Source: a virus. From it: 25,190 nucleotides of DNA. Below are positions 5,765-25,090 of this stretch, piece after piece. The stretch is from positions 1 through 25,190 of IMG/VR virus record IMGVR_UViG_3300031746_001495, one strand, 5' to 3'. Numbering within the stretch: position 1 is the stretch's first letter; each line of letters starts with the position of its first letter. The notes below the pieces were generated by a model that worked only from the letters and a program-made list of their open reading frames with translations, ran no database searches and was not told the DNA's origin. The translations under genes and the position numbers were made by a program.

Positions 5765-7642
5765 ATGAAAGAAGAATCAGTAGATGATATTTTAAAAAAT
5801 GCCATTCAGAAAGCCGTTGATTTGGCTTCCCACGAAATGGCAATCCTTAAATCGACTGGCAACAGGGCGATGTTTGAACGTAAGACAAAAGAACTTGAAG
5901 AACACATAAACGACAAATCAGCCCAATCAAGGGCGATAATAGAGGGAAAGATAAAACAACTGGAAGGAAAGATTCCAGAGAAGTTTGACCCCAAAGAGAT
6001 AAAAGACCAGATTATATCAGAAACTAAAAAGAATAATAAGTCAATAACGGGGATAAAGAAACAAATAACAAAGATACAAGATTCTTTAGATGAAACAAAA
6101 CAATTGACAACCAACGCAGACGAGGCGATTAAAGAAAAGATAGCCAATTTCAAAGTTCATTTAAAACATAAAGATTTAGAGGATATATGGCCAGACGACC
6201 ATCATCTAGAGCTTCACTTATTAGAATCACATCCTGGACTAAATGCTACGACACAAGACATAAATGACTTGGTAAGTGGTGGATATGCAGACAGATTACA
6301 TACCCACAAGATACCACAAGTTGAGATACTTCACGGTAGTAGTGGGGGAAGTAAAGTTTCTGACTTGGCTTATGGGGTAGCGTGGGATGGAATAACAGAT
6401 TTCGCACCTTCTAAGAACGCTGTTTATGACAAAATAGAAACAATAACGGCTGGAGATTTGGAAAATATAGTTGAAGATTTAACCCCGCAATTAGGTGGAA
6501 ATTTAGATGGACAGGCATTCACTATTACAACCACAAATACAATATCGGGGGGAATAGTAAGAACAAATAATTATCAGAATTTAGGCGGGACAGAAAGTTT
6601 TATCTGGAGTGCTGGAGATGATTGGTGGGAATTATCAGATGATTTTCATATGGTTGGGGTAATAACTGGAGTTGCAAGTTATAACGGATTAGTCGTAACG
6701 GCTAACACTGGAGTAATTACGACCGGAACTTGGAATGGAACAGATATAGCAGTAGCAGATGGCGGAACTGGATTAGGAGCGATAGCTGATGGTTCTGTCT
6801 TGGTTACAAATGCGGCAAACGTCTTATCAGCTATTACTTGGCACGCAGCAGGAACTAAGATTCTGACTAATATAGACGGAACTATATCTTGGGAGGCGGC
6901 AGGAGCTGGTGCGGCTACTGCTTGGGATGATATTGGCGACCCAGACGCAGATGGAACTGTTGCTTTCGCAGGGTTTGAACAGACATTAAGTTCTACTTTA
7001 AACGAAGCGGCGCACACTACTTTAACAATTTATAACAGCACGGCCGATTTAACAGCGGCAGTAACACTTTTAAAACTAACCTATAACGATGATGGCGATG
7101 CTGATGGAACTTACTTTGAATGCTTGGATCACGGCTCAGCAGATAGTAAGTTTAAAATAGCGGCAGATGGGAATACTTCAGTGGCAGGTTGGTTAACGGT
7201 AGTAGATGAGGTATATGGAGCGGGATGGGATGGTTCTACCCAGGTTCCTACTAAAAATGCTGTTTATGACAAAATTCAGACTTTAGGTGGTTCTACTTTA
7301 TTTCAACATAGATGGATAGCCAATGGTCCATATCAAGCGGGGACATTAGTTGATGGAGGTTATATTTCAGATAGTTCTTTTTCAATAACTGGAGTATGGA
7401 TTTACAGAGGAACTGCCGGAACGGCAAGTTCAACAATTTTAGATATACATAAAAACGGGGTTACGATGTACACGACTCAAGCGAATAGGCCGACGATTGC
7501 CTGGGACGATGGAGATAGCAAGGTTGATTGTACCCTTCCGGATGTCGTGACAATCAGTGCAGGTGACATTATCACTATGGATATAGACCAGAAAGAAACC
7601 GGAACCCCAAAGGATTTAATATTAATAATTCAAGGATCATAA
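5765..7642 (+). CDS. Fibre/adhesin-like virion protein with coiled-coil N-terminus
   Basis: This 625-residue protein follows the portal stop by one base (TAA-T-ATG). Residues 1-130 are charged, helical and coiled-coil-like (heptad runs in KTKELEEHINDK and KQITKIQDSLDETKQ). The rest is Gly/Thr/Asp-rich beta sequence of tail-fibre type, including TGVITTGTWNGTDIAVADGG. A module reading YG.(A/G)WDG....P(S/T)KNAVYDKI occurs twice, near residues 200-222 and 484-504. The last 110 residues (from LFQHRWIANGPY) look like a small jelly-roll-type domain. Such proteins act as tail or head fibres that contact the host surface. The coiled coil could trimerise or anchor it to the portal/neck. Specific attachment and receptor are unknown. 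Confidence 0.65.
   Translation: MKEESVDDILKNAIQKAVDLASHEMAILKSTGNRAMFERKTKELEEHINDKSAQSRAIIEGKIKQLEGKIPEKFDPKEIKDQIISETKKNNKSITGIKKQITKIQDSLDETKQLTTNADEAIKEKIANFKVHLKHKDLEDIWPDDHHLELHLLESHPGLNATTQDINDLVSGGYADRLHTHKIPQVEILHGSSGGSKVSDLAYGVAWDGITDFAPSKNAVYDKIETITAGDLENIVEDLTPQLGGNLDGQAFTITTTNTISGGIVRTNNYQNLGGTESFIWSAGDDWWELSDDFHMVGVITGVASYNGLVVTANTGVITTGTWNGTDIAVADGGTGLGAIADGSVLVTNAANVLSAITWHAAGTKILTNIDGTISWEAAGAGAATAWDDIGDPDADGTVAFAGFEQTLSSTLNEAAHTTLTIYNSTADLTAAVTLLKLTYNDDGDADGTYFECLDHGSADSKFKIAADGNTSVAGWLTVVDEVYGAGWDGSTQVPTKNAVYDKIQTLGGSTLFQHRWIANGPYQAGTLVDGGYISDSSFSITGVWIYRGTAGTASSTILDIHKNGVTMYTTQANRPTIAWDDGDSKVDCTLPDVVTISAGDIITMDIDQKETGTPKDLILIIQGS
6419..7275 (+). repeat. Dispersed intragenic repeat in the fibre gene
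   Basis: The 17-mer GCTGTTTATGACAAAAT occurs at 6419-6435 and again at 7259-7275. Each copy lies in a conserved protein module (AWDG/GWDG ... KNAVYDKI). The copies flank the central part of the fibre, suggesting internal duplication of a beta-structural unit. Confidence 0.7.
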
Positions 7643-7646
7643 ATTT

Positions 7647-8945
7647 ATGGCAACATACACACCTCAAGACGCAACTGGCGTCTTAATAAGCGACATATCA
7701 AAGGGAGCTCAAACCAATGACGTTAAGGTCACATTAGATAGTGAAGCAATAACTATTGCTGGGGCCCAAACTTTAGCAACTGTAACCAATGTAACCACAC
7801 TTGGCACAATAACCAATGCTGTCGCAGTAACAAATGCCGGTATTACATCTATTGATGGAAAGATGGTTTCAGGAACGGATATTGGTGATGTAACTGTAAA
7901 TAATGCTGGTAGTGTAAATGCAGTTAACATACAAGACGGTGGCAATACGATTACAGTAGATGGGACAATAACAGCTGATCTTTCTGCGACAGATAATGCC
8001 GTATTAGACACAATGGTAACGGCTTTACAACTTATAGATAATGCCGTTTCTGGAGCAGGATTTAACATTACCCAAGTAAATGGTGAAACCATAGATGTAG
8101 GAGCAGGAACTGAAGCAACTGCGATTAGGGTAACTTTACCAACTGATGGTACGGGGGTTGTTAAATTGGGGGCAGGAACAGCCGAAATAGGTAAACTTGC
8201 GGCAGGAACCGCAGGTATCGGAAAACTTGTTACAAACTCTGGTGTAGATATCGGAGATGTAGATGTAACAAGTATAATCCCTGGTGTTGGTGCTACTAAT
8301 TTAGGAAAAGCAATAGATACTGCCTTAGGAGCAACCGACACTGGAGTATTAGCTTTAGCAGTCAGAGATGATACTTTAAATATCCGTTCTGGGACAGAAA
8401 ACGATGTTGAACCGTTACATACGGATGCAGTTGGTGCTTTATGGACAGACCCTCAAGGAAATGTAGCTCACGATGCTGGTGATTCCGGTAATCCAATTAA
8501 GATAGGAGCAATAGCAATAACAGCTTTATCTGGAGCGACTATGGTAGCCGCAGCAGATAGAACTAATTTATATGCCGATGAAGATGGGATTCAAGTAGTG
8601 AAACTTCAAACTACTAATAACGATATGTTGGTGGAAAGAGTTTCCAACACAGACGGGGCTTCAACTGCTTCAACGGTATTCGGGGCAACGGCTAACTGCT
8701 ACAACTGCATAACAACAATTATAGTTCACAACGCCCACGCTTCCACGAACGGATATGTAGATATAAGGGATGGAACAGCGGGAACGGTTTTAGCGACATT
8801 ACCTTTGCCGGCCAATGGTGGAACAGCAATTAGCTTTCCAGTTCCATTAAGACAAACAACAGTTAATACCGCTTTGGCATTTGATGTTTCGGCGGCAATT
8901 ACAACAGTTTATTTAACTTTTATAGGATATAAGAGCAAAGCATAA
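7647..8945 (+). CDS. Beta-rich structural protein, probable fibre or capsid decoration protein
   Basis: This 432-residue protein is rich in Thr, Val, Ala and Gly. The N-terminal half has irregular beta repeats (TNVTTLGTITNAVAVTNAG; later VKLGAGTAEIGKLAAGTAGIGKL), suggestive of a beta-helix or solenoid shaft. Around residues 235-260 comes ALAVRDDTLNIRSG with a GALWTDPQGN stretch, a pattern seen in phage structural proteins. The C-terminal 120 residues (from MLVERVSNTDGAST) form an apparent compact beta-sandwich with two cysteines in ANCYNC. Together with the flanking genes it forms a block of surface proteins. It could be a fibre partner or a head decoration; the sequence does not decide. Confidence 0.55.
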   Translation: MATYTPQDATGVLISDISKGAQTNDVKVTLDSEAITIAGAQTLATVTNVTTLGTITNAVAVTNAGITSIDGKMVSGTDIGDVTVNNAGSVNAVNIQDGGNTITVDGTITADLSATDNAVLDTMVTALQLIDNAVSGAGFNITQVNGETIDVGAGTEATAIRVTLPTDGTGVVKLGAGTAEIGKLAAGTAGIGKLVTNSGVDIGDVDVTSIIPGVGATNLGKAIDTALGATDTGVLALAVRDDTLNIRSGTENDVEPLHTDAVGALWTDPQGNVAHDAGDSGNPIKIGAIAITALSGATMVAAADRTNLYADEDGIQVVKLQTTNNDMLVERVSNTDGASTASTVFGATANCYNCITTIIVHNAHASTNGYVDIRDGTAGTVLATLPLPANGGTAISFPVPLRQTTVNTALAFDVSAAITTVYLTFIGYKSKA

Positions 8946-8948
8946 TAT

Positions 8949-9005
8949 ATGCCAGACCCAGCTTCAACAAATTTAACATCAGATAATATACCCTTATGGC
9001 AGTAG
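8949..9005 (+). CDS. Possible 18-residue peptide between two fibre genes
   Basis: A short frame MPDPASTNLTSDNIPLWQ starts at ATG 8949 just after the previous stop, in the taatatATG context used by real genes here. It ends 10 bases into the next gene. It might be a translated coupling peptide that carries ribosomes to the 8996 start, or chance. No known relative. Confidence 0.25.
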   Translation: MPDPASTNLTSDNIPLWQ

Positions 9006-10984
9006 CATACGATTCAGCGGGAGCAGGAGCGGGAACGGAAACCAATCTTGCTTCATTAGATGTAGTATGTCCAGCAATAATAGCTGCGGGTGATATTCTT
9101 ATTGCTCACGTTATTTATACGGGTACAACCACTGGCCCATCAACACCTGCTAACTGGACGGCTTTATATGGCCCAGCAAATGTAGGTTCTACTGCTGCAA
9201 CGGCAAGACATTGGGTATTCGGGAAAATCGCAATCGGAGATGAAGACGGAACCACTATCGGCTTTGGAACAGCAGGAGGAACTGAAGGCCGTGCAGGAAG
9301 GATTTATAGATTTACAGGCCGTGTTACTGGCACGATTGCTCAATGCGTTCCCTCTGCCAGTTTTTCAACTACTGCTCACGATACTGACCCTCAAGGCCCG
9401 GCAGTAACTACAACCTTAGCCGGTGCTTTGGCAGTTGCTTGTATGTGTCAGGACGATAATAATACCGAGGAAGCTATCGTAAATATGACTGGTGGCACTT
9501 GGGGAGGTCACATTGAATACTCAAATGCCACTTGGGGACCACAAGGAATTGTACTTTACTTAAACACTGCTACCCCCACTGCTAATCCAGGGACTATTAC
9601 TGGTGGAGCTATGGTTGCCGCCAATGATGAGGCGGGAACGATTGGATTTGAAATAAGACACTCCTCAGCAACCCCCCCGACAACAACCATTGATACCCCC
9701 GACAACAACGCCACAGGAGTAAGTATAACCCCAGATTTGCTCTTTACAGGAACAGACGACAGTTCAGATGAAGTGGAATATGAGGTACAGGTGGATACGG
9801 CAGTAGGGTTTAATAGTGGTGCTGGTTCTCTAATAACAAATTCCACAACTAAATATGAAGATGCGATGTATGCTGGTTCCATGATTAAAAAGGGACAGTC
9901 GTTTACTGCAATTGCAACTAATTTAACAGCATTAAAAGTAAATTTAAAAAAAACATTAAGTCCAACTGGTACTATAACAGCATATTTATATAATGCTGAT
10001 GCGGGTCCTCCCTATGCCCCTACTGGTGGGGCTTTAGCGACTTCTACTAATAGTATAAATGTAAGTACCGACTTAACTACAAGTTATCAGCAAAAAACTT
10101 TTAATTTTAATAATTATACGTTATCAGCGGCAACGGTATATGTTATAACTTTTGAATTTACAAGTACAAGTTCTGATTCGTCTAATTATATTTCTTCTTA
10201 TTATAGTGGAGATTCAATTTCAGGAAATCGTTCTACTTATGTTTCTTCGTGGACAGGAAATACTTCCTATGATTGTGAATGTGAAATATGGACTTCAAGT
10301 GGTTCTGGTCCCCTCCTTGACATCCTCTCCTCCACCGAAGACCCCTCACACTTTGCAGGCACAGGTTCTCCTTCTCCTTTTCCTTCAGGAAATCAGATAA
10401 CTTATTCGGTTCAGGCGGCGGCAGGATTATTAAATAACACGGCTTACTATTGGAGAGTAAAAGCCAAAGACGCTTTAGGAACGAATACTTGGGGGGCGTG
10501 GAGTTTAGGGGACGCTTCAGATGGATATAACAAGTTCACGACAGTGACGGCGGGAGGAACTTGTGCTCTTACGGGAACCGTAGCATCAGCACCACCAACA
10601 GAAGCGAATATAGTTACTGGGGGAAAGACAATTATTTTAACTTTGACTGGTGATACTTGGGTAGCGACAGTAGGACAGGATAATGCCATCACCACGGCAC
10701 TTATAGCGGGTATTGATTCGGCTCAATCAGAAGGAACAGGTTGGGATGCGGTGGTTAAAGCCAATATGGTATTTACAGATATTAGCCGAGATTCTAATAC
10801 AGTAGTTACGGTTACATTAGGGGCTGAAGCAACTTATGATATTACAGCCACAGAAACAATTACAGTTACTATTCCAGCTTCGGCGGTAACCCTTGCGGCT
10901 CAAATAGTGGCAACACCGACATTCACGGTTACGCCAGTCGGAGGGGTAAATAACAATAATCTTTTAATATTAGGGACAGGATAA
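8996..10984 (+). CDS. Multidomain adhesin-like protein with inserted anchor/carbohydrate-type module
   Basis: This 662-residue protein shows four parts. Residues 1-225 are a beta-sandwich like those on many phage surface proteins. From about 230 a fibronectin-III-like domain begins (PPTTTIDTPDNNATGVSITPD... EVEYEVQVDTA). It is interrupted at about 278-440 by a module (GQSFTA, LTALKVNLKK, ITAYLYNAD, YVITFEF, YDCECEIWTS) resembling the choice-of-anchor R type beta domain, then resumes (QITYSVQAAAGLLNNTAYYWRVKAKDA). Residues 520-650 (TCALTGTVASAPPTEANIVTGG... VTVTIPASAV) form a bacterial surface-type beta domain. The inserted part is more AT-rich at the DNA level than its flanks, which are C-rich. 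Likely role: host binding on the virion surface. Receptor unknown. Confidence 0.6.
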   Translation: MAVAYDSAGAGAGTETNLASLDVVCPAIIAAGDILIAHVIYTGTTTGPSTPANWTALYGPANVGSTAATARHWVFGKIAIGDEDGTTIGFGTAGGTEGRAGRIYRFTGRVTGTIAQCVPSASFSTTAHDTDPQGPAVTTTLAGALAVACMCQDDNNTEEAIVNMTGGTWGGHIEYSNATWGPQGIVLYLNTATPTANPGTITGGAMVAANDEAGTIGFEIRHSSATPPTTTIDTPDNNATGVSITPDLLFTGTDDSSDEVEYEVQVDTAVGFNSGAGSLITNSTTKYEDAMYAGSMIKKGQSFTAIATNLTALKVNLKKTLSPTGTITAYLYNADAGPPYAPTGGALATSTNSINVSTDLTTSYQQKTFNFNNYTLSAATVYVITFEFTSTSSDSSNYISSYYSGDSISGNRSTYVSSWTGNTSYDCECEIWTSSGSGPLLDILSSTEDPSHFAGTGSPSPFPSGNQITYSVQAAAGLLNNTAYYWRVKAKDALGTNTWGAWSLGDASDGYNKFTTVTAGGTCALTGTVASAPPTEANIVTGGKTIILTLTGDTWVATVGQDNAITTALIAGIDSAQSEGTGWDAVVKANMVFTDISRDSNTVVTVTLGAEATYDITATETITVTIPASAVTLAAQIVATPTFTVTPVGGVNNNNLLILGTG

Positions 10985-16522: not shown

Positions 16523-18097
16523 ATGCCAAGCGATATTTTATACAACGAGGAAAAAGATGATGAGCCATTAGTGTCGGTAACAACAGAAACAGACAATGCT
16601 TTACCAGTGGAAACCACACCCCAATCGGCCCAGCTTTTAATAAGCCCGACAATAGTAGGAAAGTATTTGAATATAGAAGCAAACGGGGATGTGACGATAG
16701 GGGACTATGCGGCTGGGCAGGGGATATTCTGGGATCAATCAGCAGGAACATTGAGCATCTTAGGAGGATTGGTTGTTGACCATTTAGATATACCAGATTT
16801 GGTAACAGCCGATTCATTCCACGTAGATACGGCAGGAAACACTTGGTGGGGGAGTGTGCTAATAGGAGGTGCAGTAGCCAAGGTTCTTAAAAATGGGGCA
16901 GCCACTTTTACAAATATACAAATAACCGGAGTCCAGGCAGGTTCTTCATTAGATAGCACATACTTAACAGCAATCAATTCGGCTAAATTAAATTTAGCCG
17001 ACAGGGGATGGTCGCAAACTTGTGTCTTCTCGGTAACCGATGCCGATACAGTATCTTGGGCGGCTGGAACATTTGTTACATCGGATGCAACAACTTATAA
17101 TATTGCGGTAAATAACACAGATGTCAGATTGACGGCCGCAGGATTAGCCAGCCCAATGAACGCCAGAGTTTATATTTATTTAGATATTGGAACATCAACA
17201 ACTGAATATTGTTGCACTTATACAGCCACCACGGCAGTAGGTGCTGGAAAATGTATTGTGGCAACAGCCATAAATGGGGCAGTGGAAGCGGAGTTTGAGG
17301 TATTTGGCGGAGTTGGGGGTTCTAATATAAATGCTTCGCAGATAGTGACTGGTTCACTTACGGCTAATGAAATAGCGGCAACTACCATTACATCGGGAAA
17401 AATGAATGTGGCTACTTTATCAAGTATTGTTGCAGATTTAGGAACTATCACCGCAGGCTCAATTACACTTAATGCACTTTTAGGGACAACAGTTATAACA
17501 TTAGCTGAAGGTAGGTTTAATTATCCATACACCAAAGGAACAGTAATGTATTTTAACAATGATGGATATACTCAATCAGGATCAACCAGAACTCCAATTA
17601 TGACTCAACTTAGTGTAGATATTGGGACTCCTAATGCTTATGTTCAGAGTGTCTCTCTTGCGGGAGGAGCTGAAGATTGGGATAAAGATTTTGATTTTAA
17701 TTTGGTATGCAAAAGCACTACAGGTGCAAATGATGCTGATGCTTTTGTGGGATTGCATATTGCAGCAACAACTATTCCAACAACTGCCAGACACATAGGA
17801 TTTTATTTTGATTCCAATGTTTTATACGCTTCAAACGCCGATGGAACGACTCAGAAAAAGACTGATATTAGTGCCGGATTAACTTTAGGAAATTGGAATA
17901 GTTATAAATTCATATTTGATGCGGGAACGAATGTCAAGTTTTATGTGAATGATGCTTTAAAAGCCACCCACACGACTAATTTACCAGCAACGGGAACTGC
18001 TGATTATCCAGCTATCCATACCGTAGCCGCTCGTATTAGTGCAAATGGCGGAATTTATATAAAACATACACCAACTTGTGTAATCGCTGATTTATAA
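16523..18097 (+). CDS. Tail fibre / receptor-binding protein with lectin-like C-terminus
   Basis: This 524-residue protein starts one base after the adaptor stop (TAA-T-ATG). Its central region has fibre-type repeats such as TADSFHVDTAGNTWWGS, NASQIVTGSLTANEIAATTI and SSIVADLGTITAGSITL, patterns found where a fibre shaft passes into the tip. The C-terminal 180 residues, from EGRFNYPYTKGTVMYFNNDGY, look like a concanavalin/LamG-type sandwich with the typical tail LGNWNSYKFIFDAGTNVKFYVNDALKA. Likely the main receptor-binding fibre attached to the short tail. Sugar specificity unknown. Confidence 0.7.
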   Translation: MPSDILYNEEKDDEPLVSVTTETDNALPVETTPQSAQLLISPTIVGKYLNIEANGDVTIGDYAAGQGIFWDQSAGTLSILGGLVVDHLDIPDLVTADSFHVDTAGNTWWGSVLIGGAVAKVLKNGAATFTNIQITGVQAGSSLDSTYLTAINSAKLNLADRGWSQTCVFSVTDADTVSWAAGTFVTSDATTYNIAVNNTDVRLTAAGLASPMNARVYIYLDIGTSTTEYCCTYTATTAVGAGKCIVATAINGAVEAEFEVFGGVGGSNINASQIVTGSLTANEIAATTITSGKMNVATLSSIVADLGTITAGSITLNALLGTTVITLAEGRFNYPYTKGTVMYFNNDGYTQSGSTRTPIMTQLSVDIGTPNAYVQSVSLAGGAEDWDKDFDFNLVCKSTTGANDADAFVGLHIAATTIPTTARHIGFYFDSNVLYASNADGTTQKKTDISAGLTLGNWNSYKFIFDAGTNVKFYVNDALKATHTTNLPATGTADYPAIHTVAARISANGGIYIKHTPTCVIADL

Positions 18098-18098
18098 T

Positions 18099-18260
18099 AT
18101 GAAATATACTTTTAATGTAAAAGACGACATAAATCTTTATCAAATAAAACTCTTGATTATTTTTCTGATACAATACTTGGAAACTAAACTTCCTCTGGAA
18201 ATAGATGACGCTATTACAAAAATTCCAGATGAAATTAAAAATCAATTTAAAAAGGTATAA
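18099..18260 (+). CDS. Small protein of unknown function between fibre and internal protein genes
   Basis: This 53-residue frame starts ATG 18099 one base after the fibre stop (TAA-T-ATG) and ends TAA 18260, four bases before the next gene. The protein (MKYTFNVKDD, then INLYQIKLLIIFLIQYLE, then a charged end) has a hydrophobic or amphipathic helix around residues 15-27. The fit between its flanks and the recurrent junction motif make it a likely real gene. It may be a small chaperone or fibre-assembly factor, but no family is recognised. Confidence 0.65.
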   Translation: MKYTFNVKDDINLYQIKLLIIFLIQYLETKLPLEIDDAITKIPDEIKNQFKKV

Positions 18261-23451: not shown

Positions 23452-23664
23452 TTGGGAAAAAGCACTCATCATATAATTCCTCGTAGTAGGCATGGCCCAA
23501 ATAATGGTGAAAACCTCATTTCAGTAAGTTCAAGGAGACACAACTTATACCATAGTTTGTTTCAAAACGCACTTCCTGAAGAGATAGTGCAATTACTGAA
23601 CATTGAGTTCTGGAATGAGCATTACCAAATCTCCATAAAGGAGGTGAAAATTGGCAAAATCTAA
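23452..23664 (+). CDS. Small HNH endonuclease-like protein (TTG start)
   Basis: This 70-residue protein reads STHHIIPRSRHGPNNGENL at its start (residues 4-22), then SSRRHNLYHSLFQN and PEEIVQLLNIEFWNE. The HH, the Asn of GENL and the final H..YH form an HNH/beta-beta-alpha metal site without zinc-binding cysteines. I recall this short family from Patescibacteria genomes. It could nick DNA as a homing or defence nuclease. It starts with TTG after a good Shine-Dalgarno, directly behind two structured RNA elements, which suggests a mobile or regulated unit. It is much too short to be an IscB protein. Confidence 0.65.
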   Translation: MGKSTHHIIPRSRHGPNNGENLISVSSRRHNLYHSLFQNALPEEIVQLLNIEFWNEHYQISIKEVKIGKI

Positions 23665-23890: not shown

Positions 23891-24043
23891 ATGAAAAGGA
23901 AAATGAAAAAATCTGATGTATGCAATTTAAAATGTCCCTTTTGCGGGGCAATTATTAAAGGAAAAGTCCCAGAAGGTTTAAATTTAGATAAAGTTATAGA
24001 TTTAATAAATAAAATAAAAATATGCCAACATACAAAGACTTAG
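23891..24043 (+). CDS. Small zinc-finger-like protein
   Basis: This 50-residue protein starts ATG 23891 in the aaaaatATG context. It has a cysteine cluster C11, C15, C18 (VCNLKCPFCGAI) and a C-terminal C45 and H47 (ICQHTKT), a likely zinc site, joined by a helix (LNLDKVIDLINKIK). It overlaps the start of the next gene by 22 bases in another frame, a sign of translational coupling. Function unknown; it could be a transcription regulator or accessory to the following protein. Confidence 0.6.
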   Translation: MKRKMKKSDVCNLKCPFCGAIIKGKVPEGLNLDKVIDLINKIKICQHTKT

Positions 24044-24576
24044 TTCGACAATTAGGTTACGGAGTAATAGGTAGTGGATTTTCAATACTCCAAAACGGAT
24101 ATTCTGATTTAAAGCCAGCGATTTTTGATGTGGGTAAAATTAAGAACACTTTTGTCCAGTATGGATTTCCTAATGTTCCCACTGGTGAAGCTGATTATGA
24201 ATATGCTTTTTTAACCCCCGAAGTATTAGAGCCGATTTTATGGGACGTAATGACCTTGCTCCATAAGACAAAATACAAATTGAATATGACCGATTGTGAT
24301 GATTTTGCCTATACCCTGACTGCCTTAATGAGTATGCTCTTTGGGATAAATACTTGCGGCACTATTTTAGGCAGGGCAGATAATAAAAACACAGGAGCCC
24401 CAATTGGCGGGCATTATTTCAATTTCCCGATAACTTATAAGAATGGACTATTTGAGATGTGGTGCTGCGATGCCTTAAATCCACTTACGATTACAAAAAT
24501 AGAAAAAGGAAAGCCAATTATTATCGGAGACTGGCGTTATGTAGTTACAGATACTAGCTCCGCTCGTTATTTCTAA
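24022..24576 (+). CDS. Papain/transglutaminase-fold cysteine peptidase-like protein
   Basis: This 184-residue protein carries a likely Cys-His-Asp triad in the order of the papain/transglutaminase fold: C92 in MTDCDDFAYTL, H131 in GGHYFNFPI and D150 in WCCDALNP. Similar DCxxFA...GHAFN proteins occur in phages. It may act as a peptidoglycan-cleaving lysis enzyme or a virion peptidase; the nearby small membrane proteins favour lysis, but this is inference. No signal peptide is seen. Its last eight residues, DTSSARYF, are repeated at the end of the following homing endonuclease, so the 3' end of this gene seems to have been replaced or duplicated by that element. Confidence 0.6.
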   Translation: MPTYKDLVRQLGYGVIGSGFSILQNGYSDLKPAIFDVGKIKNTFVQYGFPNVPTGEADYEYAFLTPEVLEPILWDVMTLLHKTKYKLNMTDCDDFAYTLTALMSMLFGINTCGTILGRADNKNTGAPIGGHYFNFPITYKNGLFEMWCCDALNPLTITKIEKGKPIIIGDWRYVVTDTSSARYF

Positions 24577-25090
24577 AATTATGCCAAGAGGAATTTATCA
24601 ACATAAACCACTTTCGGAAGAACATAAAAGGAAAATAGGTAATGCAGAAAAAGGGGAAAAACATTGGACTTATGGAAAACCTCGTTTAGAAGAAACGAAA
24701 AGAAAGATTAGTCAGAAATTAAAAGGAAATGTTAAGTGGTGGATTGGAAGACATCATTCAGAAGAATCAAAACAAAAAATGAGTAAGGCACGAATTGGAA
24801 GGTTTGGAAAAGAAAATCATTGGAATTGGAAAGGAGGCGTTTCTTCAGAAGATGAGCCAATAAAACGAAGTCTAGAATATACTATTTGGCGGAATGAAGT
24901 TTATAGGAAAGATAATTGGACTTGTCGTTTATGTGGAAAGAAATGTAGAAAAGGAGACATAGTTGCTCATCACCTTAAATTATTTTCAGAATTTCCAGAA
25001 TTAAGATTTAGTATCAAAAATGGAATTGTTTTGTGTAGAAGTTGTCATATAAAAATACATCACGATACCAGTTCTGCCCGTTATTTTTAA
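24550..25090 (+). repeat. Recoded 27-base duplication of a gene 3' end (24550-24576 and 25064-25090)
   Basis: Both copies encode DTSSARYF and a TAA stop. They agree at 22 of 27 bases, and all five differences are C/T changes at third codon positions (ACT/ACC, AGC/AGT, TCC/TCT, GCT/GCC, TTC/TTT). The first copy ends the cysteine-peptidase-like gene; the second ends the NUMOD3-HNH gene in frame. The bases beside the copies are unrelated. Confidence 0.85.
24581..25090 (+). CDS. Homing endonuclease, NUMOD3 repeats plus HNH domain
   Basis: This 169-residue free-standing homing nuclease starts four bases after the previous gene. Three NUMOD3 DNA-binding units are seen at about residues 10-25 (LSEEHKRKIG), 35-50 (RLEETKRKIS) and 59-73 (SEESKQKMSKARIG). 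The C-terminal HNH domain (about 100-161) has IWRNEVYRKDNWTCRLCG, zinc cysteines C115/C118 and C152/C155, the catalytic HH at H130-H131 and the closing CHIKIHH. All key residues are kept. After the usual family end the protein runs on into DTSSARYF, identical to the end of the upstream protein. It probably cuts uninvaded versions of the upstream gene's 3' end and so spreads itself. No intron core is seen around it. Confidence 0.9.
   Translation: MPRGIYQHKPLSEEHKRKIGNAEKGEKHWTYGKPRLEETKRKISQKLKGNVKWWIGRHHSEESKQKMSKARIGRFGKENHWNWKGGVSSEDEPIKRSLEYTIWRNEVYRKDNWTCRLCGKKCRKGDIVAHHLKLFSEFPELRFSIKNGIVLCRSCHIKIHHDTSSARYF

Follow-up and report, generated by a model that had tools for sequence, protein, structure and literature searches.

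Mobile open reading frames that replace the C-terminus of the gene they enter have been described in fungal mitochondria, in atp6 of Allomyces macrogynus and in atp6, atp9, cox2 and nad3 of Glomus (PMC3630166). In these systems, an endonuclease gene has entered a conserved gene close to its 3' end, and a C-terminus borne by the element restores that gene; the native C-terminus is duplicated downstream and is the better DNA match to uninvaded relatives (PMC3630166). An earlier note on the DNA studied here had pointed to such an element, with an endonuclease and a new C-terminus, from a fungal mitochondrial atp6, and the same report describes it. Among phages, the free-standing Seg and Mob endonucleases of the T-even group spread by intronless homing. 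According to the sections of one account considered here (PMC2988022), some of them split genes whose function is kept (Aeh1 nrdA/mobE, T4 gene 60/mobA), and the site is spared cleavage by distance or by sequence divergence. Our search of the open-access literature found no phage report of an element that carries a recoded replacement end.

In this report, we analyzed a 25,190-base IMG/VR record (hereafter, the window) from a tailed phage with a terminase, an SU10-like portal and a major head protein. Near its end, a gene for a NUMOD3-HNH nuclease follows a putative cysteine-peptidase gene, and the two unrelated proteins have the same C-terminus. We propose, with a probability of about 0.83, that a free-standing homing element has replaced the 3' end of its target gene and that the displaced original end now serves as the tail of the nuclease. 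As in the fungal mobile ORFs, a duplicated C-terminus flanks the endonuclease ORF. Those ORFs, however, encode LAGLIDADG or GIY-YIG enzymes and reside in mitochondrial genomes, whereas the enzyme here is of the NUMOD3-HNH kind and is found on a phage contig. Further, the replaced ends are mostly longer in fungi, while phage tails of only 8-9 codons occur, and in the phage elements, unlike the fungal ones, the displaced native tail often becomes the C-terminus of the nuclease itself. The likeness to the Seg and Mob enzymes lies in free-standing phage nuclease genes, lacking introns and inteins, beside conserved genes; a substitute, recoded host-gene end carried by the element, as proposed for the phage elements considered here, is not described in those sections (PMC2988022). 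In broad terms, the arrangement in the window falls under intronless homing by free-standing phage nucleases.

The target and nuclease genes

Table 1. Features of the locus, in coordinates of the window
Feature	Coordinates	Strand	Basis
Target gene, 184 aa, cysteine-peptidase/transglutaminase-like (CDDFA ... GGHYFN motifs), 3' end putatively replaced	24022..24576	+	ORF
Upstream tail copy, 8 codons and stop (DTSSARYF*)	24550..24576	+	Putative element-borne, recoded replacement end
Junction, AATT, 4 bases, target stop to nuclease start	24577..24580	+	Sequence
NUMOD3-HNH homing endonuclease gene, 169 aa	24581..25090	+	Pfam, PHROG, conserved residues
Downstream tail copy and stop, in nuclease frame	25064..25090	+	Putatively the target's own original 3' end, now displaced (analogues: L119, L198)
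Putative mobile unit, 514 bases (replacement tail and nuclease body)	24550..25063	+	Spacing of the copies

The product of the target gene (the 24022 gene) has no match in Pfam, PHROGs or NCBIfam. Its CDDFA and GGHYFN motifs resemble the pattern of transglutaminase-like cysteine peptidases, according to a motif search in genomes. A comparison of 34 loci selected by pattern located the CDDFA-GHxxN pair in five weakly similar proteins as well (L271, L276, L281, L286 and L287; E 5e-4 to 0.02). The genome scan with CDDFA...GHxxN returned weakly similar proteins only, all without the DTSSARYF tail, and direct searches of IMG/VR, GTDB genomes and INPHARED phages found no relatives of the gene. The peptide-pattern searches require an exact 8-residue block, and relatives near 60% identity could escape them. 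The structure of the protein as predicted without an alignment (pLDDT 41) is too poor for use.

The nuclease is recognized by Pfam (NUMOD3, 1.5e-23, three repeats; HNH, 2.1e-5) and by PHROG (HNH endonuclease, 1.1e-14). It has both the NUMOD3 repeats and an HNH/zinc domain with its catalytic residues; the conserved HNH/zinc positions are D111, T114, C115, C118, H131, N147 and C152. An Rfam scan of the region detected no group I intron or other element. The nuclease gene resides outside any intron or intein, as the target and nuclease ORFs abut with no splicing element between them.

The duplicated tail

Direct reading of the DNA gives GATACTAGCTCCGCTCGTTATTTCTAA for positions 24550-24576 and GATACCAGTTCTGCCCGTTATTTTTAA for positions 25064-25090, each of which codes for DTSSARYF and a stop. 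The copies are offset by 514 bases and agree at 22 of 27 nucleotides. All five differences are silent C/T changes at third positions of sense codons, just as the earlier note had reported; the chance that all five would fall on the eight sense third positions is 7e-4. The similarity has a sharp edge at either side. The left one coincides exactly with the first GAT, upstream of which there is no likeness. Downstream of the coding part, the copies share only TAA and one further A.

Recurrence among related nucleases

To the yield of two alignment-based scans (80 loci with related NUMOD/HNH genes each), we added the window, two loci found earlier and a few from annotated phages, and we removed one redundant copy. 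The resulting survey comprised 166 loci from IMG/VR and phage records with a nuclease ORF (138 clusters at 90%; individual loci carry L numbers). For each locus, we compared the C-termini of upstream genes with the stretch that begins where the nuclease domain ends; mismatched loci provided the control. In about ten loci besides the window, the C-terminus of the upstream gene is present a second time, in diverged form, where the nuclease ends or shortly beyond. A local test returned strong same-locus matches in L245, L100, L155 and L119, with an expectation near zero for each, and also placed L247 and L094 (expectation 0.07) above the window. In an anchored test, in which both matches end at C-termini and lie in the nuclease frame, ten rows scored at least 31, against about 0.2 expected from the mismatched-locus control: L100, L155, L119, the window, L121, L173, L174, L089, L198 and L123. 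Two of these rows are not independent, since L173 and L121 are one contig, of which L174 is a sibling. In this protein test alone, the 8-codon tail of the window has an expectation of 0.08; the DNA test is much stronger. These expectations are conservative because the control pool includes true methyltransferase homologues.

The invaded genes are diverse. L119, L121 and L130 are sited in the 3' ends of ParB-type DNA methyltransferase genes, and the nucleases of L121 and L130 are 54% and 62% identical, respectively, to that of L119. In L198, the terminase ends in YAEHLPQNYSY and the nuclease in LDHLPQTFAY, with a portal-like gene directly after; this case, in which the tail is short, parallels the window best. 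The target in L155 is a small HTH gene. In L100, the element divides a glycosyltransferase in mid-gene: one copy of a duplicated stretch closes the N-terminal half and the other closes the nuclease, after which the C-terminal half restarts at an ATG that overlaps the nuclease stop. L089 shows near-synonymous recoding like that of the window (ILETLRSRK against ILETLRSKK, with 8/9 amino acids and 16/27 nucleotides identical), and L123 and L130 are weaker cases. The tail copies of L119, L121, L155, L100 and L245 have 50-59% protein identity over 15-26 residues. Copies are spaced 540-869 bases apart at the other loci, compared with the 514 of the window. In L245, L094 and L222, the displaced tail is found behind the nuclease or out of its frame. 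It is in frame in about 5 of 8 independent cases, too few for us to claim selection for in-frame over out-of-frame tails.

The host gene tails differ from case to case, the methyltransferase group excepted; therefore, the tail of the nuclease follows the neighboring gene and not the nuclease family. The earlier note had also stated that nucleases of this type end near the final His. This is only roughly right: the tails vary greatly across the relatives, in part because they read into displaced host tails.

Several loci have peculiarities of their own. In L100 (573-3594), ATGA start-stop overlaps occur at both junctions, and the duplicated stretch spans about 22 codons. The methyltransferase frame of L119 (536-1800) is broken near 1460 into two overlapping ORFs, by a frameshift or a sequencing error. 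L247 (1152-1325, 1879-3324) could be a 5' mirror image of the arrangement: the ORF before the nuclease resembles the N-terminal part of a downstream ParB/methyltransferase-like gene that has an N-terminus of its own. In L138 (2420-3877) and L096 (1888-3078), the nuclease is fused in front of a host gene; the HNH ORF continues in frame into a GDP-mannose-dehydratase-like protein in the former and into a transketolase-like N-terminal half in the latter.

Empty sites in relatives

Uninvaded relatives were found for two loci analogous to the window. Nine relatives of the L198 terminase were fetched besides its own contig, eight of which (L252-L259; L252 and L253 appear to be the same) reach the C-terminus. 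All eight have an LPxx(F/Y)xY-like tail, more divergent in L254 and L258, and run straight into a portal-like gene with no nuclease. The L119-type methyltransferase is uninvaded in Vibrio phage 1.213.O, where a small gene similar to the downstream gene of L119 comes after it. The tail of this uninvaded protein matches the nuclease-tail copy of L119 at 15/21 residues versus 10/21 for the host gene's own end; for Psychrobacter phage pOW20-A, the figures are 14/17 versus 8/17. Because the uninvaded tails match the nuclease-tail copy better, the original end of the L119 gene most likely lies behind the nuclease, and the new end most likely arrived with the element, in line with what the earlier note had suggested for the window. 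For L121, L130 and L198, the uninvaded relatives at hand do not discriminate between the original and the substitute copy.

The architecture suggested in the earlier note, in which an element enters just inside the 3' end of its target, places a replacement end upstream and leaves the displaced end as the tail of the nuclease, is strongly supported by loci with homologous nucleases (the terminase of L198 and the methyltransferases of L119, L121 and L130) and by the uninvaded relatives of L198 and L119. At the window, the support is less direct: none of the collections searched yielded the 24022 gene in uninvaded form, and we infer from the analogous loci which of its two copies is the original.

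Proposed mechanism and alternatives

We propose that the NUMOD3-HNH gene, without an intron or intein, entered the 24022 gene at a point eight codons short of the stop. What moves would be a unit of two parts, a substitute for the 3' end of the target gene and, after it, the nuclease body. Once invaded, the target gene would read into this substitute and so keep its C-terminus, and the original end, displaced in frame behind the nuclease, would supply the latter with a tail and a stop codon. In a mixed infection, the nuclease would cut the 3' end of the gene where a co-infecting phage has it in uninvaded form. Repair templated by the invaded genome would then copy the unit in, with the gene body on one side and the displaced tail and downstream DNA on the other as homology arms. 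Being spelled differently, the substitute end would keep the nuclease from cutting its own genome and would keep the two copies from recombining with loss of the element. For a free-standing nuclease of the T-even phages, Bonocora et al., in 2011, reportedly described a site spared by a bypassed cassette. Through synonymous recoding, the invaded gene of the window would have lost the cleavage site and become immune, but immunity may have another source than the recoded tail, because free-standing nucleases of the T4 type often cut away from the insertion site, as the sections considered here relate (PMC2988022).

An unlikely, but the most serious, alternative is that of target-site duplication, in which break repair at the insertion of the nuclease duplicated the last 27 bases of the gene and the copies then diverged silently, with no foreign or previously recoded tail. 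The two window copies, which differ by silent transitions only, do fit a common 27-base ancestor. Changes confined to third positions would, however, imply that each copy, the nuclease tail among them, has been under purifying selection. Further, the copies in L119 are unequally distant from the uninvaded relatives, the host gene's own end being the divergent one, and the 50-59% protein identity seen at several loci is more like import from a diverged homologue.

Much less credible is the notion that unrelated proteins have DTSSARYF in common as a C-terminal tag with a function, such as one in processing, packaging or targeting. An exact match in two unrelated proteins with silent DNA differences is what such a tag would leave, but the ending is absent from the other 22 genes checked in the window. 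A degenerate D-T-x-x-A-R-Y-F-stop pattern, which covered the CGN codons of arginine, was present in no other IMG/VR contig. Related nucleases, moreover, end in the tails of their own, differing upstream genes. We therefore reject the tag, for which the earlier note had named many unrelated proteins of the phage group with this ending as the sign. Although the tail is short, at 8 codons, a chance resemblance of the two C-termini is the least plausible reading of all, given a binomial probability of about 5e-9 for at least 22/27 identities at this composition and the recurrence of the pattern at related loci above the control.

Replacement of the target's end by a homing element, our preferred reading, has consequences beyond this locus. 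It is probable, in our estimation, that tailed phages harbor a widespread class of HNH homing elements that bring a recoded end replacement for the gene they cut, a natural form of cut-and-rescue that has arisen on many target genes, and that the variable C-terminus of the nuclease is an evicted host-gene end. Such a class hints at how a homing gene that lacks an intron can reside in essential phage genes (terminase, portal, methyltransferase) non-lethally and without a splicing element. It would partially explain the variable C-termini of phage HNH nucleases. It further predicts which of the nuclease tails come from an evicted host gene, so that target genes and sites could be read from sequence alone. 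It would also be a natural counterpart to recoded-rescue gene drives. Synthetic home-and-rescue drives cut an essential gene and carry a recoded rescue copy of it. The likeness is in logic only: the drives are engineered, whereas the phage arrangement is natural and concerns no more of the gene than its 3' end.

Surroundings of the locus

One contig, IMGVR_UViG_3300031999_004559, is 96-99% identical to the window over most of positions 1-22677, where it ends, short of the locus; a search with the neighboring metallophosphoesterase gene recovered this contig again and no other. Almost no DNA match to it exists in window positions 7179-10980 and 17106-18234, the latter having a single 60-base match. 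These hypervariable modules take in the C-terminal part of the 16523 gene as well as structural genes that are large and repetitive. Shortly before the region described here, a small HNH-like ORF (23452-23664) has the pattern HHIIPRSRxG...N...RxHxxxH. A PP-loop ATPase-like gene with an SGGLDSS motif (1791-2663) lies between the terminase and the portal of the window, and IMGVR_UViG_3300031999_004559 has a cluster resembling sugar/nucleotide-sugar biosynthesis genes upstream of its terminase.
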